Of a DNA stretch of 64,000 nt, positions 6,273-62,929 are shown one piece after another. A program made the translations under genes and the position numbers. The stretch is from Kitasatospora albolonga (GTDB taxonomy: Bacteria > Actinomycetota > Actinomycetes > Streptomycetales > Streptomycetaceae): assembly GCA_002082585.1 (NCBI GenBank), contig CP020563.1, positions 3,838,001 to 3,902,000 of the forward strand. The letters run 5' to 3'. The first letter of the stretch is position 1. Each line of letters opens with the position of its first letter. The notes under the pieces were generated by a model, which saw only the letters and a program-made list of their open reading frames with translations, was not told where the DNA came from and made no database searches.

Positions 6273-6290
6273 TCCTGTCCGCAGCCGACC

Positions 6291-6335
6291 GGTGGGGCCC
6301 GGCACACACCGAGGCGGTGTGTGCCGGGCCCCACC
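6291..6335. terminator. Bidirectional terminator between bpa and the oxidoreductase
   Basis: Perfect 21-bp inverted repeat (6291-6311 and 6315-6335) with a 3-nt loop between two convergent genes, serving both strands. Confidence 0.9.
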
Positions 6336-6358
6336 GCGTTTCTGCGCGTCCGGTCCTG

Positions 6359-37658: not shown

Positions 37659-39665
<2,007 letters not shown>

Positions 39666-51366: not shown

Positions 51367-51372
51367 GTGCTG

Positions 51373-51393
51373 TGGAGCCTAGGAGATTCGAAC
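51373..51393 (-). other. attL core: 3' end of tRNA-Ala
   Basis: The complement reads from the T loop TTCGAATC through the T-stem CTCCT and acceptor AGGCTCC to the discriminator A. U at position 70 is the partner expected for the alanine-specific G3:U70 pair, which points to tRNA-Ala. Upstream of the T loop the sequence (AATTTCGG side) no longer forms a T-stem, so the homology ends at about 51393. The intact tRNA should be restored at the other end of the element. Confidence 0.8.
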
Positions 51394-55786: not shown

Positions 55787-55829
55787 GTGCCCTGCTTCCC
55801 GACCCCTCTGGGCACGGGAAGCAGGGCAC
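55787..55829. terminator. Terminator between amidohydrolase and XRE genes
   Basis: 14-bp perfect arms (55787-55800 and 55816-55829), 15-nt loop, between convergent stops. Confidence 0.88.
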
Positions 55830-56680
55830 TAGCCTTTGCTGCCTGGATCGGTCCGTTCAACGACTTCACCAGCAATGTCGTTCAGGATCGACAGAACATC
55901 GGCCGGCAACCCCTCGCTGCCCATCCCGCGAGCCCGTACCCGGCCCACCTTCCCCTGCTTGGCCGCGTACATGAAGCGCAGGGCCTCATAAGCCTGCGCC
56001 GCGACGGCATCGTTCTCCTCGAAGTACAGCTTTGAGACGTCGAAGAACTTGGCCAGACCTTCGAGGACCACGGGCAGCGGGTCGGCCTTCGCTCCCGTTC
56101 GCAGACCCTCGATGTCCGCCGCCGAGACGACCGCGGCGCCCGCGTACGCATTGACCGCGTCCGCGATCTCCTGGTCCTCCGGTGACGGGCGGCCGGGGTA
56201 GGAGTGCTCCAGGAGCATGGTGATCTTCTCGGCCAGCGTCTCAGGGGCCTTCTCGGGCTGGGCCTCTCCGAAGGATCGCGCCTGCGCGCGCTTCAGCTCG
56301 TCCTCCGTCACGCCGTACGCCACCGCCAGGGCAGGGATGTACTTGTCCTTCAGAGGGCGGACGCCCTGCTCAGCACCCGCCAAGGGGCCGTCGCTCTTCG
56401 TCCCGATGATCGCCCGGGTCTCGTACCGGTAGAGGCCGGCGTCGCATCGCAGGTCCATCAGATCGGGCAAGCCGTCGCGCGGGAACAGATCGTCCAGGTC
56501 CCGGTTCAGCGCCCTCGCGAGAGCAGGCAACTTCTCCTGGTCGGGCGTCGTCGCCCCCGACTCCCACCCCGCCACGGTCGAGTCCGCCGCACCGATGGCA
56601 GACGCCACATCGGCCTGCGGTACGTCGGCGGCTCGACGTACCGCGCGCACACGTTCTCTGTCGAAACGGCGAGCTGGCAT
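55829..56680 (-). CDS. Multi-HTH XRE regulator with EspR-like C-terminal domain
   Basis: 283 aa. Residues 1-67 are a classic XRE HTH (VPQADVASAIGAADSTVAGWESGATTP). Residues 75-135 look like a second HTH with truncated helices. Residues 148-245 resemble the EspR/ImmA-partner HTH (LRTGAKADPLPVVLEGLAKFFDVSKLYF). Three HTH-like units in one chain are unusual. Divergent from the replication operon and convergent with the amidohydrolase operon; direct repeats GTGAACCGAG in its upstream DNA are likely operators. Best guess: element repressor inactivated by the ImmA peptidase. Confidence 0.8.
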   Translation of the reverse strand: MPARRFDRERVRAVRRAADVPQADVASAIGAADSTVAGWESGATTPDQEKLPALARALNRDLDDLFPRDGLPDLMDLRCDAGLYRYETRAIIGTKSDGPLAGAEQGVRPLKDKYIPALAVAYGVTEDELKRAQARSFGEAQPEKAPETLAEKITMLLEHSYPGRPSPEDQEIADAVNAYAGAAVVSAADIEGLRTGAKADPLPVVLEGLAKFFDVSKLYFEENDAVAAQAYEALRFMYAAKQGKVGRVRARGMGSEGLPADVLSILNDIAGEVVERTDPGSKG

Positions 56681-56766: not shown

Positions 56767-56915
56767 GAGGGGGTTCGCACCCCTCTCAGCTTTCGCCCAC
56801 CTGCGGTTCCCATCGTGGACCGGTCCGGTGGAGAGGGGTTGCCGCGCATCACTCGGGCGCGGCCCTTCCCCTCAAAACGCCATCGGCGTCCGAGAGTTCG
56901 CACCTCTCGGACGCC
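56767..56915 (+). promoter_or_regulatory. Two leader hairpins with a shared TTCGCA loop
   Basis: GAGGGG (56767-56772) with CCCCTC (56780-56785), loop GTTCGCA; and a 12-bp stem 56885-56896 with 56904-56915, loop TTCGCAC. Both lie in the 5' leader between the predicted promoter and the gene at 57025. The 56681-57024 region contains no gene. Confidence 0.6.
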
Positions 56916-57024
56916 AGACAGCTCGTGATCCGCGGCCCCGACAAGGGCGCTGGTCACTCGCACGGCCGCTCCGTGTCCTTTCGCACGGCACGACGGAGCG
57001 GCGTACCACATAGAGGAGTGTCGC

Positions 57025-57336
57025 ATGTCCCCTACAACGGGCTGCAACCCGAAGGTGGAGATCCCTTCGGGCCGGGCTGAACGGCTGGCTGCGCAACTGG
57101 CGTCCATGCTGCCTGAGGCCGCCGTCGTGCAGGTGCGCCTTCAGGGGCCCCGGACCCTGTGGCCCCACCTTGGCCTGACGGCCCTGACCGACCGAGGTCG
57201 TCACCTTCGCGTCCCTCGGGCGAAGGCGCTCACCATCGCCCGGTGGATCATCCGCTCGTTCCCCCACGCGGGATGGGCGGCCTCTGGCCACGCCTTCGAC
57301 CTGCGGACGGCTGAGCTGCGCGGGCTGGAAGCGTGA
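57025..57336 (+). CDS. Hypothetical protein, start of element operon
   Basis: 103 aa, no family recognised. Mixed alpha/beta composition (LQGPRTLWPHLGLTALTDRG, ALTIARWIIRSFP). GAGGAG at 57014-57019 precedes ATG 57025. Stop overlaps the next gene's GTG. Confidence 0.7.
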   Translation: MSPTTGCNPKVEIPSGRAERLAAQLASMLPEAAVVQVRLQGPRTLWPHLGLTALTDRGRHLRVPRAKALTIARWIIRSFPHAGWAASGHAFDLRTAELRGLEA

Positions 57337-57710
57337 TGGCGGCCGTGGCACCGGCGAATACCGGACCGGCCCTGGACGTGCAGGGACTCGTGGCCGTGGT
57401 CGACCTCTTGGCTCAGACCGGCGGCCTGGATGCCCTGCTGGGTAATCGGGCGACGGATTCCCGCGACAAGCGTCTGCACATCGGATACAGCGAAGCTGCC
57501 GAACGGCTGAACATTCCGGAGAAGTGGCTGCGTGAGCGCATATCGACGCTCCCGCACCGGAAGTTCGGGAAGTTCGTTCAGTTCACGGAGGATGACCTCC
57601 ACGCGATTTCCGATATGCACTTCGTCAGCCCCGGCGCAAGGTCCCAAAGGGACGATGAGTCGGCGCTGCTGGCACTTCAGCCATCAAAGCGCTCTCGTAA
57701 GCGTTCCTGA
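57333..57710 (+). CDS. Small HTH protein (MerR/excisionase-like)
   Basis: 125 aa. Residues 50-85 (GYSEAAERLNIPEKWLRERISTLPHRKFGKFVQFTEDDL) match the helix-turn-helix plus wing of excisionase/DNA-binding domain (HTH_17) proteins. Basic C-terminus KRSRKRS. GTG 57333 or ATG 57336. Possible recombination directionality factor or regulator; no integrase is adjacent in the window. Confidence 0.72.
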   Translation: MMAAVAPANTGPALDVQGLVAVVDLLAQTGGLDALLGNRATDSRDKRLHIGYSEAAERLNIPEKWLRERISTLPHRKFGKFVQFTEDDLHAISDMHFVSPGARSQRDDESALLALQPSKRSRKRS

Positions 57711-57767: not shown

Positions 57768-58349
57768 ATGAGCACTGACATATCCAGCCTCATCGAGGCT
57801 GCGCACCAGGGAAATTGGCTGCCCCTCATAGAGGAGTCAAAGAAGGCTCCGGGAAAGCACTGGGCCGAATCCGCTCGATGTATGAACCAGGACATCAACA
57901 TGTTCGTGCCTCTCGTAGACGGACCACGAGAAGACCCCGATTTGGTGAAAACCAAATTGGGAATATCCCTCAACCGTCCTCGTAATCTCTGCGGGTCATG
58001 CCCGGTGGCCGTCGCCGCCCGATGCCTGGTGGAATCCCTCAAGGACGATGACGAGTACGGAATCCGGGGCGGGCTTTTGGCCTCGGAGCGGTCAGAATTG
58101 CGGCGCGCATGGCAGGACCGGGACACCGAGCAAGCCGTAGAAAGCGCGCTCCGAGGATGCACTGCACCCTTGACCAAGCCCGCTAGGGACGCCGTGATCG
58201 CCCGCTTCGCCACCGATCCCTCTTTGGACGCCGCCGCCGTCGCCCGCGGGCTCGGAGTGACGCACCAGTACCTGCTGAAGCTCGCACGTCGCTACCGAAA
58301 GTCGCAGGCCGGACAGGGTGCTCCCTCGCTCCGGGTCGTAGCCGCCTGA
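57768..58349 (+). CDS. WhiB-like protein with C-terminal HTH
   Basis: 193 aa. Four Cys in WhiB order: C38, C75, C78, C86. The C75-x2-C78 pair is normal but C78-x7-C86 is longer than the usual x5. GIRGG near residue 98 replaces the GVWGG turn. The C-terminal 70 residues (AVIARFATDPSLDAAAVARGLGVTHQYLLKLARRY) look like an added HTH. WhiB proteins bind a 4Fe-4S cluster and sigma factor. Weak ribosome-binding site before ATG 57768. Confidence 0.75.
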   Translation: MSTDISSLIEAAHQGNWLPLIEESKKAPGKHWAESARCMNQDINMFVPLVDGPREDPDLVKTKLGISLNRPRNLCGSCPVAVAARCLVESLKDDDEYGIRGGLLASERSELRRAWQDRDTEQAVESALRGCTAPLTKPARDAVIARFATDPSLDAAAVARGLGVTHQYLLKLARRYRKSQAGQGAPSLRVVAA

Positions 58350-58411: not shown

Positions 58412-58771
58412 ATGCCTCAGAACAACCCCTCCGGACTTCGGCCCACAAATATGTGTGCCGCGATCCGCGAGATTGCACCTACGGCCGCACTCGTGCGGGT
58501 TTACCCCCAGCGTCGGTCTGTTACCCACCTCTTCGAATCGGACTTCTACCGCATGCTCATCGACCGCAGGACCGAGGAAGAAGTGGCCCGCGTGATCCGA
58601 CGCGGATTCGGAAAGATGGCAGACTGGCGCCTTGCCCACGATTTCTACCTCCCGACGGCAACGCTGTACCTCACTCCGGAACCGCACCAGAATGGCTACA
58701 TCCCGGAGGACGACAATTCCTTCGGCCTTGCCCTCCACCGTCGAATAGCGATAGCTGGCGGTGAGCGCTGA
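58412..58771 (+). CDS. Hypothetical protein
   Basis: 119 aa, no family recognised. Contains RLAHDFYLPTATLYLTPEPH. GGGAG at 58400s precedes the ATG; TGA overlaps the ATG of the next gene by one base. Probably co-translated with the replication gene. Confidence 0.6.
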   Translation: MPQNNPSGLRPTNMCAAIREIAPTAALVRVYPQRRSVTHLFESDFYRMLIDRRTEEEVARVIRRGFGKMADWRLAHDFYLPTATLYLTPEPHQNGYIPEDDNSFGLALHRRIAIAGGER

Positions 58772-59628
58772 TGAGCGACGTAGTCACCGAACTGATCTGG
58801 TCGCAATCAAAGTCGCGTAGGGGCTCACGCCTCGTCATGCTGGCACTGGCCCGTGAGGCGGACGACAACGGCAAAGCCACGCTGACCCTGGACGACATAG
58901 CCGGAATCACTCGCCTGACGCCTCGTTCAATAACGAAGTGCCTGGGGGAGCTGGCGACGCTCGGGGAACTCAGCCACGAACGAGGAGGCGGAGCCTCCAA
59001 CCCCAACACCTACTCGATACTGCTGTGCCAGGCGAGCGACCGTACCGGTTCAGAGAAGGAACTTCCCACTCTCCACCCTAAAGACCCGGAAGAGGGTACT
59101 AAGTTCCAGGAAGTTACCTCCCAGAACTCAGCTCCAGAGGCCGGAAGTGGGAAGTTTCAGCGCACAGATTCGGAAGTTTCTTCCTCGCGCACACGTGGTG
59201 GTAATACTCCCGTAGGGAGTATTACCACCACCAAAGAGCAAGCTAGCTTGCTGGGACCGCGTCGAGAGAACTCAACCAGCAAGCAGGACTCGGTGAAGGT
59301 TCCCGACGGAGCGAAGGACCTGGTAACAGCCATAACCGGAGCTGGAATGCTCGTCGGCTGGCGGCTGACCGAATCCGAATGGGATCGGGTAACAGCTCTC
59401 GCAGCGCGCTGGGGGAATGACCGTCTGGTCGAGATGGTGGCGCGCCGGTGGAACGCCGACCGGCCGCCACAGTCCGCCCGCTATCTGCTGCGCATCTGGG
59501 CGGATCTCCCGTCGCACGCTTCCGCAGCAGCCTCCCAAGGAAATGTCGTGCCGCTGCGCCGACAGTCCCCAGGCTGGATTCCCTTTCAGAACACCGCCGC
59601 CCCCAGCGCCTACCAGAACGGATTTTGA
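58771..59628 (+). CDS. Winged-helix replication initiator-like protein
   Basis: 285 aa. N-terminal winged helix (residues 5-80: SRLVMLALAREADDNGKATLTLDDIAGI, TPRSITKCLGELATLGEL), a low-complexity linker (about 85-180), and a C-terminal alpha domain (about 190-265: LTESEWDRVTALAARWGNDRLVEMVARRW) like DnaD/replisome organiser proteins. Followed immediately by a DnaC-like ATPase gene. The coding sequence of the linker contains repeats and a long palindrome (see 59060-59231). Confidence 0.75.
   Translation: MSDVVTELIWSQSKSRRGSRLVMLALAREADDNGKATLTLDDIAGITRLTPRSITKCLGELATLGELSHERGGGASNPNTYSILLCQASDRTGSEKELPTLHPKDPEEGTKFQEVTSQNSAPEAGSGKFQRTDSEVSSSRTRGGNTPVGSITTTKEQASLLGPRRENSTSKQDSVKVPDGAKDLVTAITGAGMLVGWRLTESEWDRVTALAARWGNDRLVEMVARRWNADRPPQSARYLLRIWADLPSHASAAASQGNVVPLRRQSPGWIPFQNTAAPSAYQNGF
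59060..59231. other. Candidate origin inside the initiator gene
   Basis: GGAAGTT at 59109-59115, 59150-59156 and 59172-59178 and its complement at 59060-59066, then a palindrome with perfect 17-bp arms (59195-59211 and 59215-59231), 3-nt loop, AT-richer than the gene. All fall within the codons for the disordered linker (residues about 97-154), where selection on protein sequence is weak. Confidence 0.6.
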
Positions 59629-59630
59629 TC

Positions 59631-60359
59631 ATGGCTGAGCCGGAACGCGCGGGCAGCGCCAGGTCAATGCGCGCCATTGAACGAATACTCGCCGCGAAGG
59701 GACTTCAGGTCGTGCCGGACTCCGACCCCGCCGACGAGGTACTGGAAGAAAGCCCCGGAGACCTCGAATGGCACAGTCGGGCTCGGGCCGACTACGCCCT
59801 GACCCGCTGGCGGCGCGCGACCCCTCCCCGGTTCCGTGACGCGGAGGCCACGCTGCCGGAGGTCGTCCAGTGGGCCGACCGCGCCCTTGCGGACAACGCC
59901 GCCGCTGGTGCTCTGCTCCTCACCGGCCTCACGGGGACGGGCAAGACGCACCAGGCATACGGGGCCTTGAAAAGGGTCGCGGCCGGCGCACCGGACCGCT
60001 TCGAGCTGATCGCCGTGAACTCGGCGGACATGTACGGCAACCTGCGGCCTTCACAGGTCATGGGCGCTTCGGAACACGAGCTGCAACGGCTCAGCCGTGT
60101 CCAGTACCTGTTCCTCGATGACCTCGGTACGGCGAAAACGTCGGAATGGACCGAAGAGGTCACGTACCGGCTGATCAACTTCAGGTACAACCACTGCCTG
60201 CCGACGATCATCACGTCCAACCTTCCGGCCCGCGACGAGAACGGGCCGGACCTGAGCGACTTCGTCGGGGCGCGCGTGGCGAGCCGCCTGGCAGAGATGG
60301 TCACGACCCTCGTGCCGATGATCGGCGCCGACCGGCGTCGTGGCGGGAGGGCGGCCTGA
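59631..60359 (+). CDS. DnaC/IstB-like AAA+ ATPase (helicase loader)
   Basis: 242 aa. Walker A GLTGTGKT at residues 99-106, Walker B in YLFLDDLGT, sensor in IITSNLP, and an arginine-containing VGARVASRLAEM end. Fits helicase loaders acting with an initiator to place DnaB. ATG 59631 is 2 bp after the preceding stop. Strict pairing with the initiator resembles phage O/P or DnaD-DnaI pairs. Confidence 0.88.
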   Translation: MAEPERAGSARSMRAIERILAAKGLQVVPDSDPADEVLEESPGDLEWHSRARADYALTRWRRATPPRFRDAEATLPEVVQWADRALADNAAAGALLLTGLTGTGKTHQAYGALKRVAAGAPDRFELIAVNSADMYGNLRPSQVMGASEHELQRLSRVQYLFLDDLGTAKTSEWTEEVTYRLINFRYNHCLPTIITSNLPARDENGPDLSDFVGARVASRLAEMVTTLVPMIGADRRRGGRAA

Positions 60360-60709
60360 TGCCCGTCCGCCTTCGCGGAGCCTCCCGCGATGCCGCCGCA
60401 CTGTCCACAGCCTGTGCATACGTCGGCCCGCTCAGCCGGTACGCGACCCCCTTCACGGCCGGGATGCGCTCCCCGCTCGGTCCTCCGATGGACCGTGCGG
60501 AAGCAGTAGATCTCTTCGCCGCCACGCTCCGGGGCCCTGTTGGCCGCCACTACGCCGCTCGATTCGCCCGAGCGCTGCACGGGCTCGACCTGATGTGCAC
60601 ATGCCCCCTTGATGCTCCGTGCCACGCGGACGTCCTTCTCCGTCTCGCCAACGAGTCCGGCGAAGGAACCGCACTCCGCACCACCCGATCTTCTGGAAGG
60701 CCCCGATGA
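60359..60709 (+). CDS. DUF4326 protein
   Basis: 116 aa. Typical DUF4326 C-terminal signature CTCPLDAPCHADVLL. Common in phage and mobile-element operons, function unknown. ATG 60359 overlaps the TGA of the ATPase gene. Confidence 0.82.
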   Translation: MPVRLRGASRDAAALSTACAYVGPLSRYATPFTAGMRSPLGPPMDRAEAVDLFAATLRGPVGRHYAARFARALHGLDLMCTCPLDAPCHADVLLRLANESGEGTALRTTRSSGRPR

Positions 60710-61125
60710 GTCACCCGATCATGTTCGCTGCGGCCAAGCACCTCACCACCGCAGAGGAACAGCGCAGGACCGCTCGGGAGACGGCTTTCCGCACCTGGGG
60801 TCCACGGTCGATCACGGCGGCGTCGTCGTACGCCCGCACCCTCCTGGGGGACGCCGCAGTCACGCTCGAATGGGAGGTGCTGGGCCTGCTGAGCTTTGAA
60901 GAGCACCTGCAAGCCGTCGCCTCGCTCGACACGGCGGGCGGCCAGCACCTGGAGCTCTACTACACCGACCAAGGCGGCACGGAACGGATCTCGCTGCGGG
61001 TCTCGTGCGTGAGCTGCCCGAGTCAGCACGTGCACCAGGTGACGTCTCTGGAGCAGTTCGGACAGCTCCTCTCGCAGACCCCGGCCTGGTCGGATATCGC
61101 GCCCCGCGAAGGGGGCAACCTCTGA
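60706..61125 (+). CDS. Hypothetical protein
   Basis: 139 aa. No family recognised with certainty. Contains a CVSCPSQHVHQV segment, possibly metal binding. ATGA overlap with the DUF4326 gene; TGATG at the next gene. Confidence 0.65.
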   Translation: MSHPIMFAAAKHLTTAEEQRRTARETAFRTWGPRSITAASSYARTLLGDAAVTLEWEVLGLLSFEEHLQAVASLDTAGGQHLELYYTDQGGTERISLRVSCVSCPSQHVHQVTSLEQFGQLLSQTPAWSDIAPREGGNL

Positions 61126-62240
61126 TGTCGCACACGCGCATAGACACGGCGGCGGGAACCGAACCGCGGGGCTACAACCTGCGCGGCATGACGGCCTGGG
61201 ACCGCAGCGCGATCATCCTGCTCGGCGCGGCCGGCTTCGCGTTCTCGTACGACGCGCTGCGTCAGATCGCCCTCGCGATCCACGCCAGGGAGGCGCTGAG
61301 CTACCTCTTCCCCGTCTTCGTCGATGGGTTCATTGCGTACGGCGTGCGGGCGATCGTTGTCCTGCGTCACGAGCGGTTCGCCGCGCGGTTCTACGCGTGG
61401 GTCCTGTTCCTCTCGGCGACCGGGGCGAGCCTCGGCGCAAACGCTCTGCACGCGATCACGCTGAACGATTCTCCGGAGGCCGGACGGTCCGCGCTGCATC
61501 TGGCGGACAGCGTCGTGGGGGTACTTTCGATGCTCGCGCCGCTCGCGCTGGCGGGGTCGGTCCACCTCTACATCCTGATGGCGCGGACGGCTGAGCGGGC
61601 GGTCCCGGACGGGACGGGGACCGGTCCTGGACCGGTCCGGGAGGAGACTCCGACGCTCGAACGCTTCGCGGTCGAGCCGGGTCCTCGTCCGCTGGAGTCA
61701 CCCGTACAGACGGCCCCTCGACCGTTGCCGGGCGGTCCGTCCGCACCAGTGCAGTCCACCGCAGCCGCCGTTGACCTGCGCAAAGTCACAGCTCAGCCCG
61801 AGGACCATGCGCACGCCGCCGGTACGGCGGTCTCCCCGTCCGCGGATGTGGACGGGGAGGAGACGGACGGCGGGACTGCGGACGGACCGGTTCCTGGCTC
61901 GCCGGGCCACGGGCCGACCACCGCGCCTTCGTCGGCAGCCGATCCGTCCGCTCCGGCGGCGGTCCGCGACGCTGCGGACGGGGGAAAGCCGTCCGTCCCG
62001 GACGGCCCGGAGGGCTCGCAGGACCGGGAGGCGGACAACGAGTGGCTGACGGAGCTGCTGCCGATCGCACGGGCCGCTACCGAGCAGGCCGGACGGATCA
62101 GCCGTGAGGTTGTCGGTGACGCCGTCCGCAAGCGACAGGCGATCAGCAACGACCGCCTTGGTGTGCTGCTGGCCCGGCTGAAGGAAGAGGACGACCAGGT
62201 GGCCAAGACGCCCGCCGCTGCCTCCAGCGCCCTCTGGTGA
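61125..62240 (+). CDS. DUF2637 membrane protein (SpdB-like)
   Basis: 371 aa. Four membrane helices in residues 20-155 (IILLGAAGFAFSYDALRQIA, LSYLFPVFVDGFIAYGVRAI, FYAWVLFLSATGASLGANAL, VVGVLSMLAPLALAGSVHLY), then a disordered acidic/Pro region and a C-terminal helix bundle (EWLTELLPIARAATEQAGRISREVV). DUF2637 proteins occur in Streptomyces plasmids and integrative elements as candidate spread proteins. ATG 61125. Confidence 0.83.
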   Translation: MSHTRIDTAAGTEPRGYNLRGMTAWDRSAIILLGAAGFAFSYDALRQIALAIHAREALSYLFPVFVDGFIAYGVRAIVVLRHERFAARFYAWVLFLSATGASLGANALHAITLNDSPEAGRSALHLADSVVGVLSMLAPLALAGSVHLYILMARTAERAVPDGTGTGPGPVREETPTLERFAVEPGPRPLESPVQTAPRPLPGGPSAPVQSTAAAVDLRKVTAQPEDHAHAAGTAVSPSADVDGEETDGGTADGPVPGSPGHGPTTAPSSAADPSAPAAVRDAADGGKPSVPDGPEGSQDREADNEWLTELLPIARAATEQAGRISREVVGDAVRKRQAISNDRLGVLLARLKEEDDQVAKTPAAASSALW

Positions 62241-62896: not shown

Positions 62897-62929
62897 GCCG
62901 GAACTTAATTCCTGGAATTAAGTTCCGGC
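62897..62929 (+). terminator. Factor-independent terminator
   Basis: 16-bp perfect arms (62897-62912 and 62914-62929), AT-rich, followed by TTTTT (62930s). Strongest classical terminator in the window. Confidence 0.95.

Follow-up and report, generated by a model that had tools for sequence, protein, structure and literature searches.

The closest described counterpart of the locus analyzed here is the replication region of phage lambda, in which the initiator gene O holds the origin in its middle and the loader gene follows. In the lambda sequence, the annotated iterons of gene O (39034-39118) are followed by what looks like an inverted repeat, at 39162-39189, whose 12-bp arms contain one mismatch and enclose a loop of 4; a 28-bp palindrome of lambda has been described in this place. 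The layout of this origin, with its dyad-symmetric iterons, is treated in the relevant passages of PMC3985674, PMC7466680, and PMC5043065, of which PMC7466680 identifies the largest hairpins of gene O as pairs of iterons; these passages do not mention the repeat after the iterons.

The element studied here shares an integrase, a VirB4-like ATPase, a coupling protein, and a MOBF relaxase with the T4SS-type ICEs of Actinobacteria. According to Ghinet et al. (2011; PMC3218068), the general assumption is that such ICEs, a few known cases apart, do not replicate autonomously; Phage_rep_O was among the profiles searched in that survey. An excerpt of PMC9513070 describes ICE transfer with rolling-circle replication. 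The AICEs (pSAM2 type) integrate site specifically and replicate after excision (PMC3218068, in part) and differ in their FtsK/SpoIIIE-type transfer and their RepSA, RepAM, or Prim-Pol replication. A palindrome within a gene of a Streptomyces element is known from plasmid pIJ101, whose sps site in spdA2 is bound by that gene's own product, SpdA2, and affects plasmid stability, SpdA2 being reported as not essential for replication (PMC4170104). Among the open-licence papers listed by our searches, we found none on an in-gene origin in T4SS/MOBF-type ICEs.

The locus lies in a 64-kb window of Kitasatospora albolonga (the whole stretch of DNA analyzed, 64,000 nucleotides) and belongs to an element inserted in tRNA-Ala(TGC). 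The 23-bp attL recurs at genome position 3953462-3953484, the right end of the element, outside the window, where it again equals the 3' end of tRNA-Ala(TGC); because these repeats mark both ends, the element is 64,114 bp long. A tyrosine integrase gene adjoins the tRNA gene, and the element carries genes for a VirB4-like ATPase, a TraG-type coupling protein, a transglycosylase/NlpC protein, a ParB_N protein, and a MOBF relaxase. Prim-Pol matches occur at 5 places in the genome, none of them inside the element; a RepSA search was empty, with the controls of that search silent too, and no FtsK/SpoIIIE-type TraB was matched among the ORFs scanned with Pfam, which are a part of all ORFs. We classify the element, inserted in tRNA-Ala(TGC), as a T4SS/MOBF ICE rather than an AICE, and the comparison with RepSA- and Prim-Pol-type elements drawn in a preliminary description of this DNA was therefore made with the wrong class. 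In contrast to the general assumption about such ICEs cited above from PMC3218068, it carries initiator and loader genes together with a candidate origin. The features concerned are as follows (window coordinates).

51371-51393, no strand: attL (left attachment repeat), a 23-bp exact match to the tRNA-Ala(TGC) 3' end
55829-56680, minus strand: HTH (phage-repressor-like) regulator of the element
57333-57710, plus strand: excisionase-like protein (phrog_1840, E 8.9e-11)
57768-58349, plus strand: WhiB-like regulator (homologue in 25/25 loci)
58771-59628, plus strand: O-like replication initiator gene (PHROG matches, AlphaFold)
59060-59066, minus strand: GGAAGTT site 1 (reads AACTTCC on the forward strand)
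59080-59253, plus strand: candidate origin block, codons 104-161 of the initiator gene
59109-59115, plus strand: GGAAGTT site 2
59150-59156, plus strand: GGAAGTT site 3
59172-59184, plus strand: iteron-like GGAAG-TTT-CTTCC dyad, containing GGAAGTT site 4 (59172)
59195-59231, no strand: perfect, covarying hairpin/palindrome, 17-bp arms and 3-nt loop
59237-59252, no strand: AGCAAGCTAGCTTGCT palindrome
59631-60359, plus strand: DnaC-like helicase loader (AAA+) gene, next after the initiator (phrog_50; DnaC structures 3ecc/3ec2)
60359-60709, plus strand: DUF4326 protein of the operon (homologue in 22/25 loci)
60706-61125, plus strand: DUF6195 protein of the operon (homologue in 24/25 loci)
61125-62240, plus strand: DUF2637 protein of the operon (homologue in 25/25 loci)
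62897-62929, plus strand: terminator-like inverted repeat 3' of the operon, 16-bp arms, T-rich tail

We confirm that the gene at 58771-59628 encodes a winged-helix, O-like initiator, as the preliminary description had it, the fold being the predicted part of this assignment. Its PHROG matches are to a family of replication initiation proteins, phrog_6643 (E 9.6e-15), and to phrog_391, labeled "replication initiation O-like" (E 5.7e-10). In its AlphaFold model (62 sequences; mean pLDDT 69.3, pTM 0.34), residues 1-90 are confidently predicted and fit a winged helix, the linker at residues 90-173 is predicted to be disordered (pLDDT under 50), and residues about 178-248 are helical; the origin block encodes a stretch of this predicted disordered linker. 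Foldseek against viral models gave 101 matches at an E value of ≤0.001, many named as HTH or replication proteins, and a match to a phage replication protein O (E 4.9e-6), all with low TM-scores; against the PDB it returned winged helices, none at an E value of 0.001 or better, and the sequence matched solved structures at E 0.28 or weaker. Pfam Phage_rep_O (PF04492) is absent among the initiator's Pfam matches up to E 0.1.

The next gene encodes the expected DnaC-like loader (phrog_50, E 1.2e-30; DnaC structure 3ecc, E 4.2e-11), and homologues of the two genes adjoin in 25/25 loci examined, in support of the O/P-like pairing proposed earlier. Homologues of the excisionase and of a 119-amino-acid ORF are each present in 23/25 loci.

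As in lambda, the initiator gene carries an origin (here a candidate) in its middle, with a loader gene next to it, and iterons with dyad symmetry (here iteron-like sites) precede an inverted repeat (that of lambda lying at 39162-39189). Unlike lambda, the system is borne by a conjugative ICE, its loader is DnaC/IstB-like, its hairpin is longer and perfect, its iterons are weak, it has no tract that is as A+T rich, and its initiator has no Phage_rep_O match.

Within the initiator gene, the palindrome noticed in the preliminary description is perfect. Only 3 perfect inverted repeats in the window have arms of 16 bp or more and loops of up to 5 nt; the palindrome is one of them and the terminator-like repeat at 62897-62929 another, and a longer one (22-bp arms, 3-nt loop) lies outside the element at 6290-6336. 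GGAAGTT or its complement occurs seven times in the window, with four of the occurrences in the initiator gene, a number reached by 0/2000 synonymous shuffles of that gene (mean 0.30), so that the repeats reported earlier are indeed present. Two more copies, 9 bp apart, lie at 57559-57574, within the excisionase-like gene. The G+C content is 52.7% in the block, 54.6% in the linker, and 66.9% in the part of the element inside the window; near the iterons we saw no strong A+T-rich unwinding tract, the block being only relatively low in G+C.

For comparison, 38 coding sequences of initiator homologues were reduced to 29 distinct ones (that of the window and 28 homologues, 48 to 92% identical). 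Protein similarity, blind to the palindrome, retrieved 27 of the 28, and one (L046) came only through the palindrome pattern. At the genus level, protein matches were obtained in 39/392 genomes and were close in 9, including the genome studied here, and a scan of a genome collection gave 22 named loci, 21 in Streptomyces and 1 in Streptacidiphilus. The palindrome pattern matched 9 of 297 family-level genomes, again including our own, and a reversed control pattern matched 2/297; outside our genome, 7/9 pattern sites fall in initiator homologues, and those in genomes G013 and G177 (2 mismatches each) do not. A protein search (7,994 candidates scored) yielded 125 relatives, 120 of which were listed; the named ones among these, from Streptomyces, Kitasatospora, and Streptacidiphilus, are annotated as hypothetical, uncharacterized, HTH, or DNA-binding proteins.

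A perfect hairpin with arms of 12 to 17 bp and a 3-nt loop is kept in 29/29 distinct genes, the window's included, so that a search for homologues without the palindrome, which the preliminary description had named as refuting, found none (28/28 retain it); in L072, both arms are 3 bp shorter. In each of the 16 genes tested (of the 29), 0/200 synonymous shuffles reach the observed arm length. Across the 29-row alignment, 9/17 hairpin pairs are invariant, 7 have changed on both sides, 1 departs by unpaired cells alone, and 0/17 vary on one side only; 97.9% of the cells are paired, the unpaired ones being confined to the five outermost pairs. G-U cells are missing from the 14 innermost pairs and number two each in two outer pairs. 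Without L072, 6 pairs retain double changes. These changes come from 7 of the 28 homologue rows (L006, L009, L010, L033, L047, L071, and L073) and may not all be independent. The three-helix structure as a whole pairs at 93.9%, versus at most 67.1% for slid versions, and 0/500 shuffles match it on any measure. The AGCAAGCTAGCTTGCT palindrome has a conserved left half, a decaying right half, and zero double changes. Covariation of the left dyad was set aside, since its three double changes all come from L033, which does not have that dyad; because of this, and because the third helix has no double changes, covariation supports the hairpin only.

Synonymous codon identity reaches 0.852 in codons 104-161, versus 0.545 in the rest of the gene, with the best 20-codon value (0.942) at codon 141 (0/2000 permutations) and values up to 0.96 at the palindrome, against mostly 0.4 to 0.6 in the folded domains. 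Other raised windows are the last codons of the gene (0.85) and one near codon 200 (0.78). The loader gene, serving as a control with 20 sequences (that of the window and those of 19 of the 22 named loci), has no comparable window (236/2000 permutations). Amino acid identity is 0.69 to 0.81 over the palindrome and drops to about 0.3 in some parts of the block. From the shuffles, the hairpin pairing, and the synonymous peak in a predicted disordered linker, it follows that the DNA sequence inside the initiator gene is itself under selection, and the palindrome is conserved at the nucleotide level beyond what the peptide requires, the point that the preliminary description had proposed to check. 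The exact GGAAGTT repeats did not hold up as a conserved feature, with 0 to 4 copies per gene in the 9 genes counted; the parts that persist are one GGAAG-N3-CTTCC dyad (in most homologues), the hairpin, and the AGCAAGCTAGC motif.

With the anatomy, the conservation of DNA beyond the peptide, the paired changes in the hairpin, the constant gene pair, and the ICE context established, we read these sequences, as best we can, as a candidate theta origin that lies within a gene and is used by an O/P-like pair of initiator and loader. The stretch is probably the vegetative replication origin of a Streptomyces T4SS/MOBF ICE, placed inside the disordered-linker codons of its own initiator gene. After excision, the winged helix of the initiator would bind the GGAAG-type sites and open the origin; the strand with the hairpin would then fold or be recognized, and the hairpin and AGCAAGCTAGC motif would mark the place at which host DnaB helicase is put onto the DNA by the DnaC-like loader, with theta replication of the excised circle following. 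The role of the hairpin is the least certain step of this scheme. The host presumably relies on DciA for helicase loading, and this would account for the presence of a loader gene on the element. The earlier proposal of replication by an O/P-type primosome stands as regards the initiator-loader pair and the conservation at the DNA level and fails in its AICE comparison; replication itself is what we infer.

Streptomyces prophages and viral contigs have O-like initiators with a related arrangement, and the two of these that were scanned likewise match phrog_6643. In nine such loci, iterons are followed by an ACTCC..GGAGT hairpin and then by AGCAAGC. They differ in having clear iteron arrays and a short hairpin of 6 to 8 bp, and the viral contigs differ also in the gene after the initiator, which is phrog_8924 (3/4) or has no PHROG match (1/4); a DnaC-like gene in that position is absent in the 4 viral contigs tested. 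A phage-form pattern derived from three loci matched 4/384 genomes, namely, those three and our own genome, through its second initiator, with zero sites outside O-like genes. It also matched 5 viral contigs, in ORFs related to the initiator, where variable iteron arrays are followed on the 3' side by a nearly constant hairpin block. Loci chosen by pattern carry it by construction and were left out of the frequency counts. Protein searches found no close homologue of the initiator in viral contigs, and the strict ICE-type hairpin-motif pattern was not found there either. The second, phage-type O-like initiator of the same genome, at 6348148-6348981 (minus strand), has repeats and a short hairpin with AGCAAGC; some 6 kb from it there is a match to a tyrosine recombinase.

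Among more distant relatives, we compared 24 initiators, of which 21 were fetched from 41 distant places found by protein match and three are phage or phage-like relatives. Repeated dyads were seen by eye in many of them. Within this set, chosen by protein similarity, a hairpin closely followed by an AGCNAGC-type motif is present in 7/24 and missing in 17/24, by a criterion fixed after the sequences had been seen; L092, from a class-level search, was added after its hairpin was seen, giving 8/25. Shuffles over all genes tested contained the pair in 23/2950 cases. Inspection by eye of seven further class-level loci (L090, L091, and L093 to L097, the ORF of L091 being off-frame) revealed no such pair. 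Five of the eight initiators with the pair (L025, L028, L029, L030, and L092) align with that of the window only from residue 91 or later. Tentatively, and with the odds against it, the hairpin with AGCAAGC(T/A)AGC could be a movable loading signal common to Streptomyces phage- and ICE-type initiators whose N-terminal DNA-binding parts are dissimilar, read not by the winged helix but by the C-terminal domain that they share, by the loader, or by a host factor; it would then define a distinct in-gene origin class for theta replication of T4SS ICEs.

Among the alternatives to an origin, the one that survives best, although we consider it unlikely, is a regulatory or stability site, i.e., an operator or a partition/incompatibility palindrome in the gene that is bound by the initiator or by another protein of the element. 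SpdA2 of pIJ101 is a precedent, a dimer site would give paired changes too, and the ParB_N protein of the element could be cited in its favor. The half-site, however, has no second copy in the part of the element inside the window, and a search of the whole 8.03-Mb genome with the 27-nt core, tolerating 3 mismatches, gave this place alone. The site also accompanies the initiator-loader pair in 25/25 loci, and in the five viral contigs (found by pattern) a similar hairpin lies 3' of the iteron arrays.

Less likely still is a conjugation signal, the hairpin belonging to oriT or acting as a single-strand initiation site of the transferred strand. MOBF relaxases recognize hairpins, and in 13/13 genomes with a close homologue the contig that bears it also has a MOBF relaxase match. 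Its distance from the hairpin nonetheless measures 27 to 59 kb in 14/14 loci of these 13 genomes (32 kb in our own), and a similar hairpin with motif occurs in the O-like genes of the 5 viral contigs, where 0/5 records, which may be fragments, have a TrwC match.

It is highly improbable that the hairpin acts in the mRNA to tune expression of the initiator and loader. As RNA it would fold at -29.9 kcal/mol, and the paired changes would suit such an element, but the scarcity of G-U cells, absent from the innermost pairs, argues otherwise, and an RNA hairpin leaves the dyads and the AGCAAGCTAGC motif unexplained. Terminator and RNA-family readings were set aside, as the hairpin is not listed as terminator-like, unlike the repeat at 62897-62929, and has zero Rfam family matches. 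Peptide constraint or chance has a negligible probability: T146, P147, G149, and S150, which the palindrome encodes, do not vary among 16 proteins, but the linker that holds them is predicted to be disordered, and the shuffles, the changes in hairpin pairs, and the permutations of synonymous identity contradict this explanation.

The preferred reading, an in-gene replication origin, bears on the boundary between ICEs and plasmids. If a conserved in-gene origin and its own loader do serve these elements, excised T4SS ICEs would be plasmid-like, and the loader would be brought into hosts that are not known to have DnaC; the candidate origin block is also a short, testable cis-sequence. The module is present on a circular plasmid as well, the 88.7-kb pMDJK44.2 of S. 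alboflavus (L033), which has a 49% identical initiator homologue in the same gene order, without the GGAAG-N3-CTTCC left dyad. Its feature table, which is incomplete, lists no other Rep gene. The cumulative GC skew of the plasmid has its minimum near 53.6 kb and its maximum near 84.9 kb, with no turn at the initiator (20.5 to 21.3 kb), and is uninformative. The same plasmid bears type I-E CRISPR-Cas genes, from cas3 to cas2, and a site-specific integrase gene.

Some further observations concern the element and its relatives. Inverted repeats resembling that at 62897-62929 occur in 6/13 related loci scanned (L053, L054, L056, L058, L068, and L042). Between the repressor and excisionase genes of the ICE, window position 56881-57009 (minus strand) matches the Streptomyces small RNA Scr6925 (Rfam RF02826) at 55.5 bits, against a gathering threshold of 50, and is possibly an element-borne regulatory RNA. 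The ICE also carries lantibiotic-type biosynthesis genes (for a LanB-like dehydratase and a LanC-like cyclase; genome positions 3920393-3925661) and an APH-family phosphotransferase gene (L032:12317-13204, minus strand).
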